A stretch of 61,642 bases of DNA, taken from the NCBI RefSeq assembly GCF_900128525.1, contig NZ_FQTQ01000007.1, forward strand, positions 1 through 61,642, written 5' to 3'. The notes under the pieces were generated by a model that did no database searches, had not been told where the DNA came from, and was given only the letters and a program-made list of their open reading frames with translations. Positions 6,693-17,165 of this stretch are shown here, piece after piece. Position 1 is the stretch's first letter, and every line of letters begins with the position of its first letter. The stretch comes from a methanotrophic endosymbiont of Bathymodiolus puteoserpentis (Logatchev). GTDB taxonomy: Bacteria; Pseudomonadota; Gammaproteobacteria; Methylococcales; Methylomonadaceae. Made by a program: the position numbers and the translations under genes.

Positions 6693-7130
6693 TTATTCAG
6701 GGTTATTTGATGCTAAATCTGTCTTACTATTCACTTGGGCCTGCTCATGATATTTGGTTAATAAATACCTTGTGAAAGCTTGTAATTGCTGCAACTGTGG
6801 GCTGTATAATGATATTTGACGCGCTTGGTATAAACATTGATTGGCGGATAATAACTGCTTTTTCTCAAGTCGTTGTACGACGTCTTGATAGTATTTCTGA
6901 ATCAGAAAATTACGAAATGTGACGGCCAGCTGCGTCTTTTTTAAACGCAAGGAAAGCACGAGTGTATGAATACTTTGTTCCTTATTATTTTGCGCCCAAT
7001 GCTGTATTGCCTTGGCTAAGTAGTGTTCGGCTGCTTGTTCTGAGCCGATTACAGCACTTAGGTTTGCTTGGCAGCGCGGACAGATGAGCGCTTCTTTTAA
7101 GCGTGCATTACAGCAAGGGCAGCGTTTCAT
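6693..7130 (-). CDS. Zinc-ribbon protein at the end of the HSP70 cassette
   Basis: A 145-residue protein with an N-terminal four-cysteine zinc ribbon (C4-x2-C7 and C18-x2-C21, motifs CPCC and CPRC). A helical region follows, with TPR-like spacing (AEHYLAKAIQHWAQNNKEQS and onward). I do not recognise a family. ATG at 7130 is preferred over a TTG one codon upstream, because this ATG overlaps the HSP70 stop codon by one base (TGATG), a typical translational-coupling arrangement. The placement and the ribbon (compare the zinc centres of DnaJ) suggest it is a client or co-chaperone component of the cassette. That role is inferred. Confidence 0.65.
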   Translation of the reverse strand: MKRCPCCNARLKEALICPRCQANLSAVIGSEQAAEHYLAKAIQHWAQNNKEQSIHTLVLSLRLKKTQLAVTFRNFLIQKYYQDVVQRLEKKQLLSANQCLYQARQISLYSPQLQQLQAFTRYLLTKYHEQAQVNSKTDLASNNPE

Positions 7131-8881
7131 CAAGATTCCAAATAATAAATAATATCAGTTAATTGTGCGCTAGACTTATCTAAGCCTTCAATATCTTGCG
7201 CTTCAATGCAGCCGGTCATTGTTTCAATTAAATCTACCATATCCTCTTTATCTTCAGCAGATATTTTCTCGAATAAACCTTCAGCCTTAGTTATTAATTC
7301 ACGCGCTGCTGTAATTTCTGGTGTATCAGAAACAGTGCTAGGCTCTTCCTCAATAATGCGCGGATCCATTTGTCCAAATAAAGAGGTAATACGTTGTTTG
7401 GCGGTATCTAATGATTCGCCTTCAAATTGAGATAACGCATTTTTAATGGTAATGGATTTCTCTAGTCCGGTTTCTTTTTCTACTGCGGAAACATTTAAAA
7501 TACCATTCAAATCCAAACCTAAAGTTAGTGTAATAACATTACCTCGAGGCACCTCTAATAAGCCTTCAACTAAGAACTCACCTATTTTGACATTATTTAA
7601 AGCATCAGGGTCTTCACCTTGGTAAATAATAATTTCAACTGTATCTTGGTTATCATAACTGGTCAAAAATGCTTCAGTTTTACGATTAGGCAAAACGCTA
7701 TTTTTATGAATAATAGGCACAAACATAAAGGGATAGGGTTGGCCATCTAATACACCGATAGCACTGGTTCCATAAGTATAAGGTGTTACATCAACCAGCA
7801 CTGTATCGACTTCTTGACCGCTAATCATAGCGGCTTGTATTGCTGCCCCCATGGCAACGCATAAGTCAGGATCAACTTCGCTATGTGGTTCAAAACCAAA
7901 TTCATTAAGTAAGCGCTCACGGATGCAGGGTGTACGTGTCGAGCCACCGACTAAGATCACTTCATCTATATCCGATGCGGTTAGTTTTGCGCCTTTTAAG
8001 GCGATATGCGTAGCATCAATCGTGGCATTAATATAGTCTTCAATCATGTCTTCGTAAGCTATCCTGGATAGCTCAAGCGATAGATGCACGGCTGCGCCGT
8101 CATGCTCTAATAAGTATTCTTCATTGATTTGTGCATAAGGCTGGTCGGACAGTAAAAATTTCGCTTCTTCAGCGGCTCGTGTAAGTCGTGCCATCGCTTT
8201 ACTGTGCTGGCGCACATCAACATTATGTGTTTCTTGTATATGTTCAATTAAATATTCAATAATTTGTTGGTCAAAATCATCACCGCCTAGATGGTTGTCA
8301 CCATGACTGGAGAGTACCTCAACTACGCCATCTTGCATGTTCACTACGGAGACATCAAAGGTTCCGCCGCCCAAATCATAAACCAAAACCTGCTTTGCTT
8401 CAGCTTGCTCAGTGCCATAAGCTAATGCCGCCGCCGTTGGCTCATTAATCATACGCATGACTTCTAAGCCTGCAATTTCACCTGCTTCACGGGTTGCTTG
8501 GCGTTGTGCATCCGAGAAGTAAGCGGGTACAGTAATGACTGCTTTACTGACGGCTTGACCTAGATATTGTTCGGCGATACCTTTTAGGCGAGTAAGAATA
8601 ATAGCGGATATTTCTTGCGGCGTATAAGCTTGATCTGCTAATACGACTTGCGTATCTTGTCCCATTAAACGCTTGATGGATTTAATCGTTCGCTCTGGGT
8701 AGACGAGGTATTGATTGCGTGCGGTTTCTCCGACAATCACCTGACCTGCGTCATCAATACCAACAAAAGAGGGGAGCATTTTTTTGTCACCCTCTTTAAT
8801 AATAGTAACCTTACCTTGTTCAACAACCGATACTTCTGAGTTAGTTGTGCCTAAATCTATACCTATAATGATATCTTTCAT
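7130..8881 (-). CDS. Divergent HSP70 (DnaK-like) chaperone
   Basis: A 583-residue HSP70, shorter than canonical DnaK (about 640). The nucleotide-binding domain is intact: IGIDLGTTNSEVSV (7-20), YDLGGGTFDVSVV (168-180), HLGGDDFD (197-204) and VGGSTRTP (311-318). The interdomain linker DTVLVD (359-364) keeps the hydrophobic pattern of DVLLLD. The substrate-binding domain is recognisable up to about 500, but the lid is short and the C-terminus (IYYLES) has no EEVD-like or DnaK-like tail. It is not the housekeeping dnaK, which normally sits with dnaJ and a heat-shock grpE. Here its partners are a GrpE-like and a small J protein directly upstream. Resemblance to specialised HSP70s such as HscC is possible, but the exact subfamily needs a tree. 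Confidence 0.85.
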   Translation of the reverse strand: MKDIIIGIDLGTTNSEVSVVEQGKVTIIKEGDKKMLPSFVGIDDAGQVIVGETARNQYLVYPERTIKSIKRLMGQDTQVVLADQAYTPQEISAIILTRLKGIAEQYLGQAVSKAVITVPAYFSDAQRQATREAGEIAGLEVMRMINEPTAAALAYGTEQAEAKQVLVYDLGGGTFDVSVVNMQDGVVEVLSSHGDNHLGGDDFDQQIIEYLIEHIQETHNVDVRQHSKAMARLTRAAEEAKFLLSDQPYAQINEEYLLEHDGAAVHLSLELSRIAYEDMIEDYINATIDATHIALKGAKLTASDIDEVILVGGSTRTPCIRERLLNEFGFEPHSEVDPDLCVAMGAAIQAAMISGQEVDTVLVDVTPYTYGTSAIGVLDGQPYPFMFVPIIHKNSVLPNRKTEAFLTSYDNQDTVEIIIYQGEDPDALNNVKIGEFLVEGLLEVPRGNVITLTLGLDLNGILNVSAVEKETGLEKSITIKNALSQFEGESLDTAKQRITSLFGQMDPRIIEEEPSTVSDTPEITAARELITKAEGLFEKISAEDKEDMVDLIETMTGCIEAQDIEGLDKSSAQLTDIIYYLES

Positions 8882-9544
8882 TTATTTGCCGTTAATTTTA
8901 TTGACTTTGACTTCTGCTAAACGCAGAACCTGACCTTTAAATAAAAAGCCTTTACGTAATTCTTGTAATACTATGCCATTTTCGTGTGTGGTATCCTGCC
9001 CTGTTTCCACAGCACTCATGGTTACTGGATCAAGGCGCTTACCAACACAATCAATCACTTGTACTTTATACTCTGCGAGTAATTGTTCAAAACGTTTTAA
9101 AGTCATTATTTGGCCTTCTTTAAAGCGCTTAATAAAATTGACATCTTTTACCCGAGATTTTTTAAACGGGCGATTGACTGGTCGATAGTTTTGTAAAACG
9201 TCAACCCCTGTATTTAAACGATCATACATATCGACCATTTGTAATAGCATAGTGCGCATTAATTTTTCTTGCTGTTGCTCTAGTCGTTGACTATAAGCGG
9301 CCAATTCCGTTGCTAAGGTTTTATTATCTTCTTGAACAGTCGTTAGTGCTGTCGTTAAGGTGTCTAAAGTATTTTTAAACTGCCTTGCTTCTGCCTTTAC
9401 TTCAGTTTTTAGACCGCTCATTTCACTTAGCAGACTGTGTAAGTCTGGCTGGTTCTGGATAGCAAAAGGATCAAGCGTATTTTGCTCTAGGTACTTCTGG
9501 AAATCTTCCAATAATTCGTTTTTCTGACCTTCTGTACTCATCAT
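8882..9544 (-). CDS. GrpE-like nucleotide exchange factor
   Basis: A 220-residue protein whose C-terminal half carries the GrpE beta-domain signature: DPVTMSAVETG, then NGIVLQELRKGF, then GQVLRLAEVKV. Residues about 45-110 form a likely coiled coil, as in the GrpE dimerisation stalk. The segment in between (RPVNRPFKKSRVKDVNF) is basic and unlike housekeeping GrpE. It starts 4 nt inside the J-protein gene (ATGA overlap) and ends immediately before the HSP70 start codon. It would recharge that HSP70 with ATP. I leave the gene symbol empty because a separate housekeeping grpE is expected elsewhere. Confidence 0.8.
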   Translation of the reverse strand: MMSTEGQKNELLEDFQKYLEQNTLDPFAIQNQPDLHSLLSEMSGLKTEVKAEARQFKNTLDTLTTALTTVQEDNKTLATELAAYSQRLEQQQEKLMRTMLLQMVDMYDRLNTGVDVLQNYRPVNRPFKKSRVKDVNFIKRFKEGQIMTLKRFEQLLAEYKVQVIDCVGKRLDPVTMSAVETGQDTTHENGIVLQELRKGFLFKGQVLRLAEVKVNKINGK

Positions 9545-9876
9545 TTTTTAGAGGTGGCTGTGGCATTTAAAAGCGTTGTATCATCTATACTGGCTTGTAA
9601 CAATTGATTAATAAATTCGGCACTCAAATTAAGCGTGTGCTCAGTTTGTAACAGTTGCTCCATTAAGGTATCAAAATTAACCTCGGGTAGCCTAAATAAT
9701 GCATAACTAACTCGGCTTTTATGGTCTTTAATTGCACTATAAGCGTCATGAATTAACTGAAATTTTTCTTGGTTACGATCTGGCGGGTTATCTTTTACTA
9801 ATCGTAAATAGGCTTGTTTAATTTCAGCATCATTGGCTGTTGTTGCTACATTTAAAACTTCATAAGCTGTGCTCAT
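9541..9876 (-). CDS. Small J-domain protein with PPD in place of HPD
   Basis: A 111-residue protein, most of which is one J domain: helix I YEVLNVATTANDAEIKQAY, the loop, then helix III KFQLIHDAYSAIKD and a SRVSYAL terminus. The loop that should read HPD reads N-P-P-D-R-N (residues about 30-35), confirmed from the codons AAC CCG CCA GAT CGT AAC. The conserved His needed to stimulate HSP70 ATPase is thus a Pro, while Asp is kept. A helical tail of about 45 residues follows. It overlaps the GrpE-like gene by 4 nt and follows the TPR gene by 11 nt. PPE/PPD-type J domains do occur in other bacteria as far as I recall, so this may be a subfamily trait rather than a defect. Confidence 0.78.
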   Translation of the reverse strand: MSTAYEVLNVATTANDAEIKQAYLRLVKDNPPDRNQEKFQLIHDAYSAIKDHKSRVSYALFRLPEVNFDTLMEQLLQTEHTLNLSAEFINQLLQASIDDTTLLNATATSKK

Positions 9877-9887
9877 AACAGACCCCC

Positions 9888-12380
9888 TTAAAAAGGAAAA
9901 GGAAAAGAAGATGAACTTGTACGTTTACCTATACCATAATATGCAAGTACATCCTCTATGCTGACATCAATATTAATACCGAGTTTATCGGCTGCTTTAA
10001 CAATCATCAGTGCTGAAAATAGATCAGGTTCTTGCATAATAGCTAACATAACACTCTTATCGCCTATGGACTGTATAAGCTCTATAGCGACTTGTTCAAT
10101 ACTGGTTTTTTTAGATAAAGATTCAACGGTTTCATCGAGTTTCATTACGACTTCATCAGAAAGATGACCAAATAATATATCCAGCTTATCATCCTCTTCG
10201 TCATCATCATTTATACCAAAGAAATTATCAAGAAAGTTCATACTGCTTTGTGGGTGTGCGTGATAATACCGGTCTATTAGTTTCTGCAGCTTTATGCCCA
10301 CCTGAAAATCCTTAGCCAGCATGGCTTGCTCATGATAATGTTCTAAGCTCATCAGCTCTCTATAGGTACAATCCTCGGGTTTGCCATTATTATCTGCATA
10401 AACGCGGTAATACATCCATATAGGTTCTTGCCATTTAGCAAAGGCAGTTTTGGCACAATGCCGTAATAATTCAAAATGCTCAAGCTTTTCTAATAGTTTG
10501 CATAAATGGCGTAAGGTGGATTCTGCAAAATCTTGCCCTGTTAGTGCCTTTTTCAGTGGTGCCTTAACTTTTTCTAATGCCTTGTGTATCTGGCTATTAT
10601 CAGCCTCATTGATAAACTGCTCTAGCAGTTGTATAAATTGAGTGAATTCAGACTCTGTCAGTAAATAATCTTTCGCAGGTGGTAAGACGCGTAAAATAGT
10701 CGCAACGGGTAAGCCTGCAGACAAAGCTGCCATGCTGGCATGAAAATGCCTATTAACTGGGTCGGTATATAAGTTAGCTAAGGCATCGCTAATTAATTGT
10801 AAGCCCTGCTCTTTATCTTCATGAGCAAAACATAATAGCGCACGCATAAGTTGGGTTTGCTTAACATAAATTTTACCAATATTGAGCGCTTCTGCCAGTG
10901 CAATTTCCTTTGCGACTAAAGGGTAAGATTTTTCGCGCATCAACCGATAGGCATGTGCTAAGTGACTCGCAAACAAAGTTTGCTTAGCAAAGGTATTCAG
11001 TGGGTCGATTTTTAATATTTTTGTTGCATATTGGCTGGCTTTTTTATAAGTTTTGTTACGTGTTGCTTCGCGCACAGCCTGAATAAGTATATCAATATCT
11101 TGTGGGAATTTTTTCAACGCTTTAGATAGCCATAACTTATAGTCCTTAGTCGCTTCTGCTTGTTGATAATGCTGTAAGATTTGTAGATAAATATCGCGAT
11201 CTTCAGCATCATATTGTAAACTTTCAATCAATAATTCAGTTTTCTCAGCAGGTTCCTCTCGCTTGCTGAGATGACGTAAAATCAACGCTATTTTTAAGTT
11301 GTTTTCCTCAAGGTGTTGACCTATTAATTCTTTAATACAAAGACGCCAATAATGTTCAGCATCATAACTATTGCCCTGGCGCTCACATGCTAGAGCATGA
11401 AGGCGATTGTTTTCAAACTCATCCACTGCACCAAAATTCTTTTTAAAAATTTTGTGTCCCGCCGAGTAATTAACTAAAAGCTGTTGACAGTAATTTTTCG
11501 CAAATTCTGTACCGCATAGCGATTGATACTGAATAGCCATATTGAACTTTACTTTATCTGATAAATGCTCATATTGACGTGTCAAATGCGTTAGAAATTC
11601 AAGCTGAGTTTTATTAAACCCTTTTATATTAGAGATAATATTACGTTGTGCAGGACTAAGCTTAACTAGATTTTTTGCCAATTCAGCACCGTCAAAAGTG
11701 CTGACTAACAATAAATGAGCAAAGTTAGAATAAGCTGAATTGTCAGGTATCTTGGCTAATAATACACGTGCTTGATCTATTGACTCAGGTAGGGTTATTA
11801 AAGCATTTAGCACAGTACGCAAATCTTTAAAAGCAGAGCGGTACGGTAATTGTTTTAATGCCTCGTCTAGCTTTTCTCGGTTATTATCTTGGTAGGCCTG
11901 CAATGCCATTTTCACTTGTTGCAAGTGCGCAATAAACATAGAATCTTGCGGTAAATCTAACGCAAACTCAGGGTGTTCAGTGAGTATTAATAAACCTAAT
12001 ACAGCGGCGAGCGCAGGATATTCTTTATCTAGCTGCTGCGCTGATAATTGCTGAATATTCTCTTGGATACGTGCTTTATTTTTACTTAAAATAAGCCAAA
12101 TAATATATTGATCATAAGCGGCATAAGGTGCATGTGTATGTTGACGGTGATTTTCCCACAGCACTAAAGCCTCTTTAAACATTCCTTGCGCAGCCAAAGC
12201 CGTTGCACGCTGCACATAACAATAGGCTAATTTCTTATGCCACTCGTTATGATCAGAAATTTTTAATAATTTCTTATATAGCCCAATCGCCTCTTTATAT
12301 TTGCCAGCACTTAACTGAGTTTGAGCTTGTTGCTCAAGGCTATTGGGGTCAGCTGGGGCAGCTGCAGGTTTCTTTTTCAT
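9888..12380 (-). CDS. Large TPR-repeat protein heading the HSP70 cassette
   Basis: An 830-residue cytosolic protein built largely of helical repeats. Tetratricopeptide-type units are clearest near the N-terminus (AQTQLSAGKYKEAIGLYKKL, then QRATALAAQGMFKEALVLW). Another set lies around 395-500 (YDAEDRDIYLQILQHYQQA; YKKASQYATKILKIDP). A strongly acidic patch (NDDDEEDDKLD, about 722-732) separates a C-terminal helical domain that ends in a Ser/Pro/Phe tail. There is no signal peptide. As the first gene, it may be the client-selecting or scaffold part of the chaperone set; TPR proteins often bind HSP70s. No family name is recognised. A good Shine-Dalgarno is not visible. Confidence 0.75.
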   Translation of the reverse strand: MKKKPAAAPADPNSLEQQAQTQLSAGKYKEAIGLYKKLLKISDHNEWHKKLAYCYVQRATALAAQGMFKEALVLWENHRQHTHAPYAAYDQYIIWLILSKNKARIQENIQQLSAQQLDKEYPALAAVLGLLILTEHPEFALDLPQDSMFIAHLQQVKMALQAYQDNNREKLDEALKQLPYRSAFKDLRTVLNALITLPESIDQARVLLAKIPDNSAYSNFAHLLLVSTFDGAELAKNLVKLSPAQRNIISNIKGFNKTQLEFLTHLTRQYEHLSDKVKFNMAIQYQSLCGTEFAKNYCQQLLVNYSAGHKIFKKNFGAVDEFENNRLHALACERQGNSYDAEHYWRLCIKELIGQHLEENNLKIALILRHLSKREEPAEKTELLIESLQYDAEDRDIYLQILQHYQQAEATKDYKLWLSKALKKFPQDIDILIQAVREATRNKTYKKASQYATKILKIDPLNTFAKQTLFASHLAHAYRLMREKSYPLVAKEIALAEALNIGKIYVKQTQLMRALLCFAHEDKEQGLQLISDALANLYTDPVNRHFHASMAALSAGLPVATILRVLPPAKDYLLTESEFTQFIQLLEQFINEADNSQIHKALEKVKAPLKKALTGQDFAESTLRHLCKLLEKLEHFELLRHCAKTAFAKWQEPIWMYYRVYADNNGKPEDCTYRELMSLEHYHEQAMLAKDFQVGIKLQKLIDRYYHAHPQSSMNFLDNFFGINDDDEEDDKLDILFGHLSDEVVMKLDETVESLSKKTSIEQVAIELIQSIGDKSVMLAIMQEPDLFSALMIVKAADKLGINIDVSIEDVLAYYGIGKRTSSSSFPFPF

Positions 12381-14403: not shown

Positions 14404-14787
14404 ATGAAAATAATCACAAAAATAAAATCAATTACATTCGTTAGCATAATATTAGTTTTCACATCGTCTATCGCTATGGCAGAGAGGGGAGAACATAGTA
14501 ATAAGCATGGCTCGCATCGTCATGAAGCTGAAACACACTATAATGACAGGTTTGAACATCAACATAGACAGGGTTATGGTAATGAATATCGCCGCCATCA
14601 TAAGCATCATGCGTATGGTTGGCGACATAATAGACATCACCGTTACTTTGATAAGCATGCTTATCGGCACGGGCACAGAAAGCATCATAATCATAGGTAT
14701 TATGCTCAAAATCATAATTATTATCAGCCTGCACGTATTTTATTTGGCTTGCAAGGTGGCGATTTTAGATTCTTATTCCGTGATTAA
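14404..14787 (+). CDS. Secreted histidine-rich protein
   Basis: A 127-residue protein with a signal peptide (cleaved near SIAMA, residue 26). The mature chain contains 21 histidines by my count, mostly as HH, HRH and KHH clusters mixed with Arg, Tyr and Asn. It ends in a non-His tail (ARILFGLQGGDFRFLFRD). The composition suggests binding of transition metal ions in the periplasm or at the surface, but no fold is recognised. GGAG lies 8-9 nt before the ATG. It is followed by a PepSY gene and a two-component system, and preceded by a direct-repeat box. That supports a stress- or metal-responsive unit. Confidence 0.7.
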   Translation: MKIITKIKSITFVSIILVFTSSIAMAERGEHSNKHGSHRHEAETHYNDRFEHQHRQGYGNEYRRHHKHHAYGWRHNRHHRYFDKHAYRHGHRKHHNHRYYAQNHNYYQPARILFGLQGGDFRFLFRD

Positions 14788-15160: not shown

Positions 15161-15841
15161 ATGCGAATACTGTTGATTGAAGATGACCCTGATTTACAAG
15201 ATCATATTAAACAAAGTTTAGAAAAAGAAAGTTATATAGTCGATGTTAGCGGTGATGGTAATGAAGGGTACTTTTTTGCCACCGAATATCCTGCGGATGC
15301 TGCGATTATTGACCTAGGTTTGCCGGGAATGAACGGCATAGAAATTATTCAAACACTACGCAAGCAAGGGTCGGTACTACCTATACTGGTCTTAACTGCA
15401 CGTAGTCGATGGCAAGAAAAAGTAGAAGGCTTAGAAGCAGGAGCGGATGATTATTTGGTTAAGCCATTTCAAATGGAAGAACTACTTGCTAGGCTTAAAG
15501 CCTTATTACGTCGATCGGCTGGTTCGGCAACTTCAGAGCTAAGTTGCCAAGGTCTAAGGCTAAACCCGTCCACAGAACAAGTCTGGTTAAACAATGAATT
15601 ATTAGACATAACAGCTTTTGAATATCGTATGTTAGATTATTTAATGCGTCATGCAAATGAAGCCGTTTCTAAAGCGCGTCTCGCAGATTATATCTATCCG
15701 CACGATCATGATCGAGATAGTAATGTGATTGAAGTATTGATTGGTCGTTTACGTAAAAAATTAGACCCAAATAGTTGCTTGCACCCCATAGAAACTTTGC
15801 GTAACCGCGGCTATCGTTTTACGCTTTACGATCAACAATAA
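15161..15841 (+). CDS. PhoP-like response regulator
   Basis: A 226-residue OmpR-class regulator. The receiver domain has D8/D9 (IEDDPDLQ), phospho-acceptor D51 (IIDLGLPGMNG), T79 (LVLTAR) and K101 (YLVKPF). The C-terminal winged helix starts near 125 and shows ITAFEYRMLDYLM and the recognition-helix segment DSNVIEVLIGRLRKKL. The segment TARSRWQEKVEGLEAGADDY and the overall order closely resemble enterobacterial PhoP, more than QseB or PmrA. It ends 1 nt before the sensor kinase gene. A direct-repeat box at 14320 is the likely target. I give no symbol because orthology to PhoP is unproven. Confidence 0.85.
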   Translation: MRILLIEDDPDLQDHIKQSLEKESYIVDVSGDGNEGYFFATEYPADAAIIDLGLPGMNGIEIIQTLRKQGSVLPILVLTARSRWQEKVEGLEAGADDYLVKPFQMEELLARLKALLRRSAGSATSELSCQGLRLNPSTEQVWLNNELLDITAFEYRMLDYLMRHANEAVSKARLADYIYPHDHDRDSNVIEVLIGRLRKKLDPNSCLHPIETLRNRGYRFTLYDQQ

Positions 15842-15842
15842 C

Positions 15843-17165
15843 ATGTCGCTTGCTACGCGAATTAACTTAAGTGCAGCTTTAGTACTGCTCAGTTTTATTT
15901 GTCTAACAGCCTTTGCATTGGAGCGGGCTTTTTTTGATAGCACGGAAAGCGCGTTGCGCGACACGATGAGCAGTCAACTATTTGCATTGATGGCTGCTGC
16001 TGAAATGGAAAATCAGCAAGTGATTATGCCTTCAAACGAGTTGGATGCCTTATTAGGTCTACCGGCTTCTGGTATTTATGCGACGATTAGTAACCCTACT
16101 GGCAATATTCTATGGCAGTCGTCTTCAACACTTGGCACTACATTACCCAAACCTCCTTTATTAAAACAAGGCGAAAAAATTTTTAACAAAGTCTATGTTG
16201 ATGATAAAGGTTTTTATCGTACCGCATACACAGTGCTTTGGCCGACTCAGGCAGAAAGTGTCGAATTGACCTTTAGCGTGATTACAGATTTACGCTCCTT
16301 TGATAAGCAAATTAATCGCTACCGCGCCTCCTTATGGGGTTGGCTTGGCGCGATGGCAGTTTTGTTATTATGTAGTCAAGCCATTATTTTGCACTGGGGG
16401 CTATCACCTTTACGTAAAGTTGGGCGCGAACTTAATCATATTGAAACAGGTCAGCAGCGGCAAATTGAGGCACAGTATCCACAAGAGATTAAGCAGCTGA
16501 CCGATAATATTAATTTACTTTTAGAACAAGAGAGACAGCAGAAAATACGCTATCGTGATGCGATGGGCAATTTAGCGCATAGCCTAAAAACCCCATTAGC
16601 TGTTTTACAAGTCAATTTACAAGCAGGGGCGCAGCAACAAGATAAGCAAGGTATGCAAGAGCAGTTAGATAGAATGGATATGATTGTAAAATATCAACTG
16701 CAATGGGCGGTATCAGCAGATACTAAACAGGGTACAAGAGTGAATTTATTATCTACTATTGAGCGTTTGCTAAATTCATTACAAAAAGTTTATGCGGATA
16801 AAGCCATCGCTGTGCAAGTTATTGTTGATAGCAGTTTGAACTTTAGGGGGGATGAAGGCGACTTAATGGAGGTGCTAGGCAATTTATTAGAAAATGCTTT
16901 TAAATGGACTAGGCAAAAGATAATTATCAAGGCTGAACAAAGAGAAAATCACCTATTTATAAGTATTGATGATGACGGCGTAGGGTTAGCACCAGAAAAA
17001 GTAGATGAACTATTGCAGCGTGGTGTGCGTGCAGACCAATCAACCGCTGGGCATGGCATTGGCTTGTCTATTGTAAAGAATATAGTGCAAGCTTATGGTG
17101 GTGAGTTAAAGATAGGAAAAAGTCATTTAGGTGGGGTTGGGGTTAGAGTGACCCTGACTTTTTAG
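15843..17165 (+). CDS. PhoQ-like sensor histidine kinase
   Basis: A 440-residue membrane kinase. Membrane helix 1 spans about 8-28 and helix 2 about 164-184. The roughly 135-residue periplasmic domain between them has the LERAFFDSTESALRDTM start seen in PhoQ-like sensors. A HAMP-like linker follows. The H-box is GNLAHSLKTP with H246, the N-box LGNLLENAFKW, and the G-boxes DDDGVGLAPEK and GHGIGLSIVKNIV. Its partner is the regulator 1 nt upstream. The last two codons and the TAG stop lie inside sequence that resembles the reversed 3' end of parE (see 17156-17233), so the original C-terminus may have been slightly altered. Confidence 0.85.
   Translation: MSLATRINLSAALVLLSFICLTAFALERAFFDSTESALRDTMSSQLFALMAAAEMENQQVIMPSNELDALLGLPASGIYATISNPTGNILWQSSSTLGTTLPKPPLLKQGEKIFNKVYVDDKGFYRTAYTVLWPTQAESVELTFSVITDLRSFDKQINRYRASLWGWLGAMAVLLLCSQAIILHWGLSPLRKVGRELNHIETGQQRQIEAQYPQEIKQLTDNINLLLEQERQQKIRYRDAMGNLAHSLKTPLAVLQVNLQAGAQQQDKQGMQEQLDRMDMIVKYQLQWAVSADTKQGTRVNLLSTIERLLNSLQKVYADKAIAVQVIVDSSLNFRGDEGDLMEVLGNLLENAFKWTRQKIIIKAEQRENHLFISIDDDGVGLAPEKVDELLQRGVRADQSTAGHGIGLSIVKNIVQAYGGELKIGKSHLGGVGVRVTLTF

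Follow-up and report, generated by a model that had tools for sequence, protein, structure and literature searches.

Can a methanotroph that already encodes DnaK, DnaJ and GrpE run a further Hsp70 machine, with a J protein that lacks the histidine of the HPD motif? The question is raised by a five-gene cassette from a methanotrophic endosymbiont of Bathymodiolus puteoserpentis (assembly GCF_900128525.1, contig NZ_FQTQ01000007.1, positions 1 to 61,642; this whole stretch of 61,642 nucleotides is called the window). The cassette lies on the minus strand at 6693-12380. Open reading frame (ORF) analysis gives the order TPR, J, GrpE, Hsp70 and zinc-ribbon, with junctions of 11, -4, 0 and -4 (or -1) nucleotides. 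On balance, and with appreciable room for doubt, the analysis favours an Hsp70 machine that is dedicated to a client, passed on as a cassette of five genes and built on a fourth prokaryotic Hsp70 lineage. Its parts are as follows (pLDDT, predicted local distance difference test).

9888-12380, minus strand: TPR alpha-solenoid protein with an acidic linker and a small C-terminal helical domain; 830 amino acids; Pfam TPR_14, AlphaFold2 model, orthologues in full cassettes
10197-10238, minus strand: linker at residues 715-728 of the TPR protein, acidic and probably disordered; pLDDT below 50
9541-9876, minus strand: J-like protein; 111 amino acids; Pfam DnaJ; HPD histidine absent
9778-9786, minus strand: P31-P32-D33 in place of H-P-D; alignment to E. 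coli DnaJ
8882-9544, minus strand: dedicated GrpE; 220 amino acids; Pfam GrpE; own clade in the tree
7130-8881, minus strand: Hsp70 of a separate lineage; 583 amino acids; Pfam HSP70; own clade; ATPase and J-binding residues kept
7133-7147, minus strand: extreme C-terminus YYLES of the Hsp70; [YF][YF][LMV][EDQ]x-stop shared by 69 of the 70 distinct Hsp70s
6693-7133, minus strand: zinc-ribbon plus five-helix repeat protein; 146 amino acids from TTG, or 145 from the ATG at 7130
7071-7121, minus strand: CxxC-x9-CxxC ribbon; all four cysteines conserved without exception in an alignment of 35 members

An earlier, sequence-only reading had described five packed minus-strand genes with a J domain, a GrpE, an HSP70, a TPR protein and a CxxC/CxxC ribbon, and the ORFs and Pfam matches confirm this description. 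The Hsp70 matches Pfam HSP70 at E 6.2e-151, the GrpE matches Pfam GrpE at E 2.3e-22 over positions 8-165 of 165, C-terminal part included, and the J protein matches DnaJ at E 5.5e-13. The match of the TPR protein to TPR_14 has E 5.4e-6, and the ribbon protein gives sub-threshold zinc-ribbon matches only. In the ribbon gene the codon after TTG is ATG, which overlaps the Hsp70 stop as TGATG.

The Hsp70 and GrpE lineage

In a tree of 60 rows, 20 Hsp70s of the cassette clade form one group (support 100/99), separate from DnaK and HscC. A second tree of 48 rows was made by removing 21 of these (HscA, L082, the fragment L137, three near Methylococcaceae rows, three repeats and 12 DnaK rows) and adding a Nostoc sequence and eight of the 13 loci from the phylum sample described below. 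Here 25 cassette rows group at 100/100 and are joined by Nostoc at 100/99, while DnaK (100/99) and the seven HscC-type rows (100/100) again stand apart. The drawn midpoint root shifted between the two trees, and without an outgroup the groups cannot be ordered; a placement as sister to HscC was abandoned after the root had moved. Membership of the known types was also rejected by other means. Apart from lying outside the DnaK clade, the protein scores 554.3 of the required 648 and 545.1 of 822.55 bits with the NCBIfam DnaK models, and 413.9 bits against a cut-off of 708.55 with that for HscA. HscC is set apart by its separate clade and by the GrpE-signature loop, shortened in HscC and HscA and full-length in all 70 distinct cassette Hsp70s. 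A 2021 review depicts three types of prokaryotic Hsp70 (PMC8215388); the cassette Hsp70 is probably a fourth lineage, as judged from sequence.

Residues needed for a cycle have been retained. The ATPase positions K70, E171, D194, T199 and D201 are present in 69 of the 70 Hsp70s, the remaining row being gapped, and the J-contact positions are similarly constant (R167 in 69/69 ungapped rows; Q378, L391, D393 and P419 in 70/70). Since the docking residues, the GrpE loop and the ATPase residues are all kept, a functioning Hsp70 cycle served by a dedicated exchange factor seems likely. The pattern of insertions and deletions is mixed: the loops 76-101 and 208-211 are lost (69/70, with one gapped row) and an L1,2 insertion is present (70/70), as in HscC, yet the GrpE-signature loop remains. 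The GrpE repeats the split observed for the Hsp70, each lying next to its cyanobacterial counterpart and apart from housekeeping relatives: the cassette GrpEs form a clade (98/95), joined by the cyanobacterial partners (99/99), and housekeeping GrpE is separate (99/99).

The host is a Methyloprofundus-like methanotroph with a 99.99% complete genome, in which a genome search revealed two further full-length DnaK proteins, one further GrpE encoded on the same contig as one dnaK and dnaJ, and three further J proteins, all with HPD. The housekeeping grpE adjoins an ORF resembling hrcA by eye. The sequence-only reading had taken the cassette for a separate, self-contained set and had named three outcomes that would speak against this, none of which was found: the Hsp70 does not fall inside DnaK, other dnaK and grpE genes exist in the genome, and the five genes recur together in relatives.

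Several other divergent Hsp70 genes were encountered. DnaK paralogues of about 625 amino acids (L114, L116, L118, L121 and L122) form a well-supported clade outside housekeeping DnaK, and the 76-101 loop is missing in L114, the one member read. Two distant Hsp70 genes occur on a separate contig of the genome of the window (G000:C197), and genes of a far more distant Hsp70 family (e.g. of 914 amino acids) occur less than 10 kb from the cassette at four loci of Methylococcaceae (L042 11423-16634, L061 1461-2225, L063 2604-3368 and L068 17288-18049). On a Pseudanabaena galeata plasmid (L159 4444-6575), a GrpE gene neighbours a short gene of the Hsp70 family, after which come DUF1257 and ATPase genes; this GrpE is extremely divergent in the GrpE tree.

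Distribution of the five-gene cassette

A set of named genomes yielded 48 loci, of which 47 were retained after the tree had placed Myxococcales L082 outside the Hsp70 clade. All five genes occur in order in 39 of these 47. Seven of the eight incomplete loci end at contig borders and the eighth, L039, is without the TPR gene and most of the J gene. The nearest named relatives of the locus include Bathymodiolus methanotroph symbionts and Methyloprofundus. Among 41 genomes of near relatives, the cassette Hsp70 was present in 25, a call made by our own reading at an identity of at least 49%, where the match covered most of the protein or was broken up by contig ends. It is absent from four of the 18 genomes within the genus, from one of seven others in the family and from 11 of the 16 in the rest of the order. 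The cassette is thus accessory, since its Hsp70 is missing from many relatives, some of them 99-100% complete. In two genomes of 99% completeness (G017 and G024), the Hsp70, the special GrpE and the TPR protein are missing together, a generic 19-bit TPR match in G024 excepted.

The wider samples gave a similar separation of scores. At least 11 of 369 genomes of the class (the genome of the window included) carry the cassette Hsp70, all scoring at least 691 bits, with a DnaK next at 517; scoring was limited to three candidates in each genome, so that 11 is a lower bound. Among 160 genomes sampled across the phylum (at least 90% complete, at most eight candidates scored), the Hsp70 was found in the same genome and in 13 others at 826 bits or more, the next match reaching 555. 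These 13 are all Pseudomonadota outside the class, and each has the full five-gene order. At the order and class level, nine of 14 annotated loci are complete. L132 stops before the ribbon gene, as does L136, which is also without GrpE; L090 consists of GrpE-Hsp70-ribbon, and L129 and L137 of Hsp70-ribbon, the latter on a short contig. In three genomes the cassette is split and the TPR protein is still encoded elsewhere: G156 and G404 have the TPR and GrpE genes on other contigs, and G033 has its TPR gene apart from the rest.

The cassette is also found in a second phylum. A plasmid of Nostoc sp. UHCC 0302 carries TPR-J-GrpE-Hsp70-ribbon/TPR in the same order as the window. Its Hsp70 is 42.6% identical to that of the window and scores 652 bits with the clade profile, compared with at most 543 for DnaK rows, and its ribbon protein matches the ribbon profile at E 2.3e-10. 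In Acaryochloris 'Moss Beach', three plasmid copies of TPR-J-GrpE (L163 1-16000, L160 and L161) are each followed by an unannotated Hsp70, the frame of which is broken in both copies read (pMB01 and pMB02).

Flanking genes were examined as a possible clue to the client and rejected: within 4.5 kb, where flanks were clustered rather than annotated, the most common family recurs in 5 of 57 loci. Genes named gatCAB by eye precede the cassette in L086-L089 only. With the PADLOC anti-phage models, the TPR, J and ribbon proteins gave no match and the GrpE (best 25.3 bits, to ZorA) and Hsp70 (22 bits) weak ones.

The J-like protein and the HPD motif

The sequence-only reading had credited the cassette with every part of an HSP70 cycle. 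This is not upheld for the J protein. Where Y-H-P-D is expected, the J domain of the window has N-P-P-D, and none of 71 J proteins aligned to E. coli DnaJ has a histidine at the HPD position. These 71 comprise 66 from 69 loci searched, the protein of the window, that of Nostoc and the three Acaryochloris copies, two of which are identical; no J protein was found in the searched loci L039, L057 and L078. The motif is PPD in 43, PPE in 18, PAH in 4, SPE in 2, and PPA, PAE, PPS and SPD in 1 each. The loop that follows has five residues in all 71, against 11 in E. coli DnaJ.

In the E. coli proteins, DnaJ H33 bonds to DnaK L391, and D35 to R167 and Q378 (PMC8215388); R167H suppresses D35N (PMC5519331). 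The residues contacted on the Hsp70 side are kept in the cassette Hsp70. In the cyanobacterial copies the motif is PAH instead of PP[DE], so that the J partner has also lost the aspartate, and the Hsp70s have glutamine at R167. This pairing is suggestive of a matching change.

A J domain with a non-conservatively replaced HPD defines a type IV (pseudo) J protein (PMC13254874), and the cassette protein fits this definition. Whether loss of HPD reflects accident or selection was called enigmatic in the same 2026 review, according to which HPE is the only HPD change seemingly tolerated and which also mentions stimulation of Hsc70 by a designed J-domain analogue (PMC13254874). In the cassette family the histidine is missing from all 71 members, and the J protein has stayed with an Hsp70 and a GrpE of its own across two phyla, which points to selection. 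The family also offers a natural test of the necessity of the HPD switch, and the occurrence of the cassette in a cultured methanotroph, Methylotuvimicrobium buryatense 5G (L056), makes it open to experiment.

Putative adaptors, proposed cycle and alternatives

AlphaFold2 models the TPR protein as an all-helical solenoid with a small helical end domain (mean pLDDT 90.6). Its solved relatives by sequence are generic and designed TPR proteins, others being weak or at chance level. Homology to the helical part of DjlC was considered and dismissed, as DjlC fails to match the TPR profile. The acidic patch pointed out in the sequence-only reading is real (8 D/E of 10 within the last 220 residues, rising to 10 of 10 in Nostoc) but is not a constant feature: 23 of 39 orthologues have at least 6 of 10, and the other 16 have 4 or 5. 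The putative role in client selection given to the TPR protein is plausible. The ribbon protein, in contrast, does not appear to replace the zinc centre of DnaJ as had been supposed, since its model shows a single small ribbon on a stack of five helices (mean pLDDT 95.0); a search for solved relatives by sequence returned nothing below E 0.048. In two loci (L086 10042-10998 and L089 6893-8233), ribbon proteins or enclosing ORFs have an extra C-terminal domain that resembles the GxxExxY family by eye.

The Hsp70 ends in a short conserved motif, in the form [YF][YF]LE[ST] in 55 of 70, which replaces the tail of DnaK and could be a ligand of the TPR protein. Part of this conservation might reflect a ribosome site for the overlapping ribbon gene. 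Against this, the ribbon ORF of L185 begins 54 bases later and its Hsp70 still ends in FYLET.

In the cycle that we propose, the J-like protein would dock at the usual J site and bring the Hsp70 to the client. Hydrolysis would be triggered jointly by the HPD-less J domain and the client and not by the classical HPD. The TPR solenoid and the ribbon/helical-repeat protein would act as client adaptors that might recognise the conserved end of the Hsp70, and the dedicated GrpE would reset the cycle. With the histidine missing, either hydrolysis would have a different trigger, or the J protein would act as a brake and not as a driver. It is quite possible, as a tentative extension, that the cassette represents a fourth prokaryotic Hsp70 class which cycles its ATPase without the HPD switch: the J-docking surface is kept, the J histidine is replaced, the R167 change in cyanobacteria would be a matching one, and two repeat-protein adaptors would feed one client class.

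Various observations weigh against this scheme. Replacement of H by Q ended stimulation in every system tested (PMC8215388, PMC13254874), so that the J protein may give no stimulation at all. Eight of the 71 J proteins have a histidine one position earlier (H-P-P-D/E or H-P-A-E), where a shifted reading is possible, and the R167/PAH pairing is a single contrast between two groups. Two of 69 Hsp70s carry Q in place of N170, and nearly all have a changed 56/264 pair, which forms a salt bridge in DnaK. Alignment of the TPR proteins across the two phyla is not reliable (hhalign probability 6%), the likeness of the Nostoc protein being one of layout only. One genome (G033) has its TPR gene away from the Hsp70, and another (G115) joins the TPR, J and Hsp70 genes without a special GrpE, which speaks against a need for the full set. 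A sigma-32 promoter search of 48 upstream regions showed no clear excess (three score 10 and one scores 11, compared with 1.9 and 0.1 in mononucleotide shuffles).

Restraint by the J-like protein would be the essence of a rather unlikely alternative, in which it is a regulatory pseudo-J like mitochondrial Pam16, binding the Hsp70 or another J protein, and stimulation is left to housekeeping DnaJ or a CbpA-like protein. The invariable lack of the histidine, the HPD-bearing J proteins of the same genome and the precedent of Pam16 (PMC13254874) are in its favour, the last also having a recognisable J domain with HPD replaced. Annotated loci, on the other hand, hold a single J gene per cassette and hence no built-in HPD-bearing partner. 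The cassette J protein differs from Pam16 and other type IV proteins in having an operon-linked Hsp70 and GrpE, conserved in two phyla. It is improbable that the cassette is an HscC/Djl system with added parts, for all that they share: a specialised Hsp70 with the same loop losses and substrate-binding-domain (L1,2) insertion, own J proteins with altered HPD (HPE, HPE, RPD, HPE, RPD, GPE and none in seven HscC-linked cases), the five-residue loop as read by eye, and nearby repeat proteins. At the E. coli hscC locus these are Sel1-repeat proteins, which are TPR-like, accompanied by DUF1266 proteins, and neither a GrpE nor a ribbon gene is annotated there. However, HscC forms its own clade, the GrpE-signature loop kept throughout the cassette Hsp70s is shortened in E. 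coli and Rahnella HscC (13 versus 19), the J profile rates HscC-linked J proteins no higher than ordinary DnaJ, DjlC goes unmatched by the TPR profile, and the 76-101 deletion occurs in a Paenibacillus DnaK too. No GrpE is thought to act on HscC, and its J proteins are tail-anchored (PMC8215388).

An ordinary stress-duplicated DnaK-DnaJ-GrpE set is scarcely credible. The three chaperone parts are indeed all present, with the ATPase and J-binding residues of a cycle that uses a J protein and an exchange factor, and two or more DnaK paralogues occur in 6.4% of dnaK-bearing bacterial genomes (PMC11019930). The Hsp70 and GrpE trees refute this origin unless long branches mislead them, and the DnaK model scores below cut-off, the lost HPD and the unclear heat-shock promoter signal point the same way. 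The cassette further departs from the housekeeping set in gene order, in its J protein of 111 amino acids, in an Hsp70 of 583 amino acids without the DnaK tail and in two extra proteins.

A description of the cassette was not found in searches of the open-licence PMC literature. The DnaK1-DnaJ3 system of Nostoc punctiforme likewise pairs a specialised Hsp70 of cyanobacteria with a dedicated J protein, but that organism has a single GrpE, with dnaK1 between grpE and dnaJ11, and neither 'TPR' nor 'HPD' occurs in the main text of the paper, as far as available (PMC9239167). GAP1-N2 conflict systems similarly combine Hsp70 and GrpE with a DnaJ- or TPR-bearing partner and are centred on a GTPase (PMC7159879), whereas the cassette stands alone. 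As these printed neighbours and HscC-DjlC all differ, the cassette would appear, from sequence comparison, to be a new form of Hsp70 machine, near a fourth class.

Elsewhere in the window, a 127-amino-acid histidine-rich protein is encoded on the plus strand at 14404-14787, its start resembling a signal peptide by eye. It is followed on the same strand, at 15161-17165, by an ORF like an OmpR-type response regulator and one of 440 amino acids; the three are possibly a metal-responsive two-component set.

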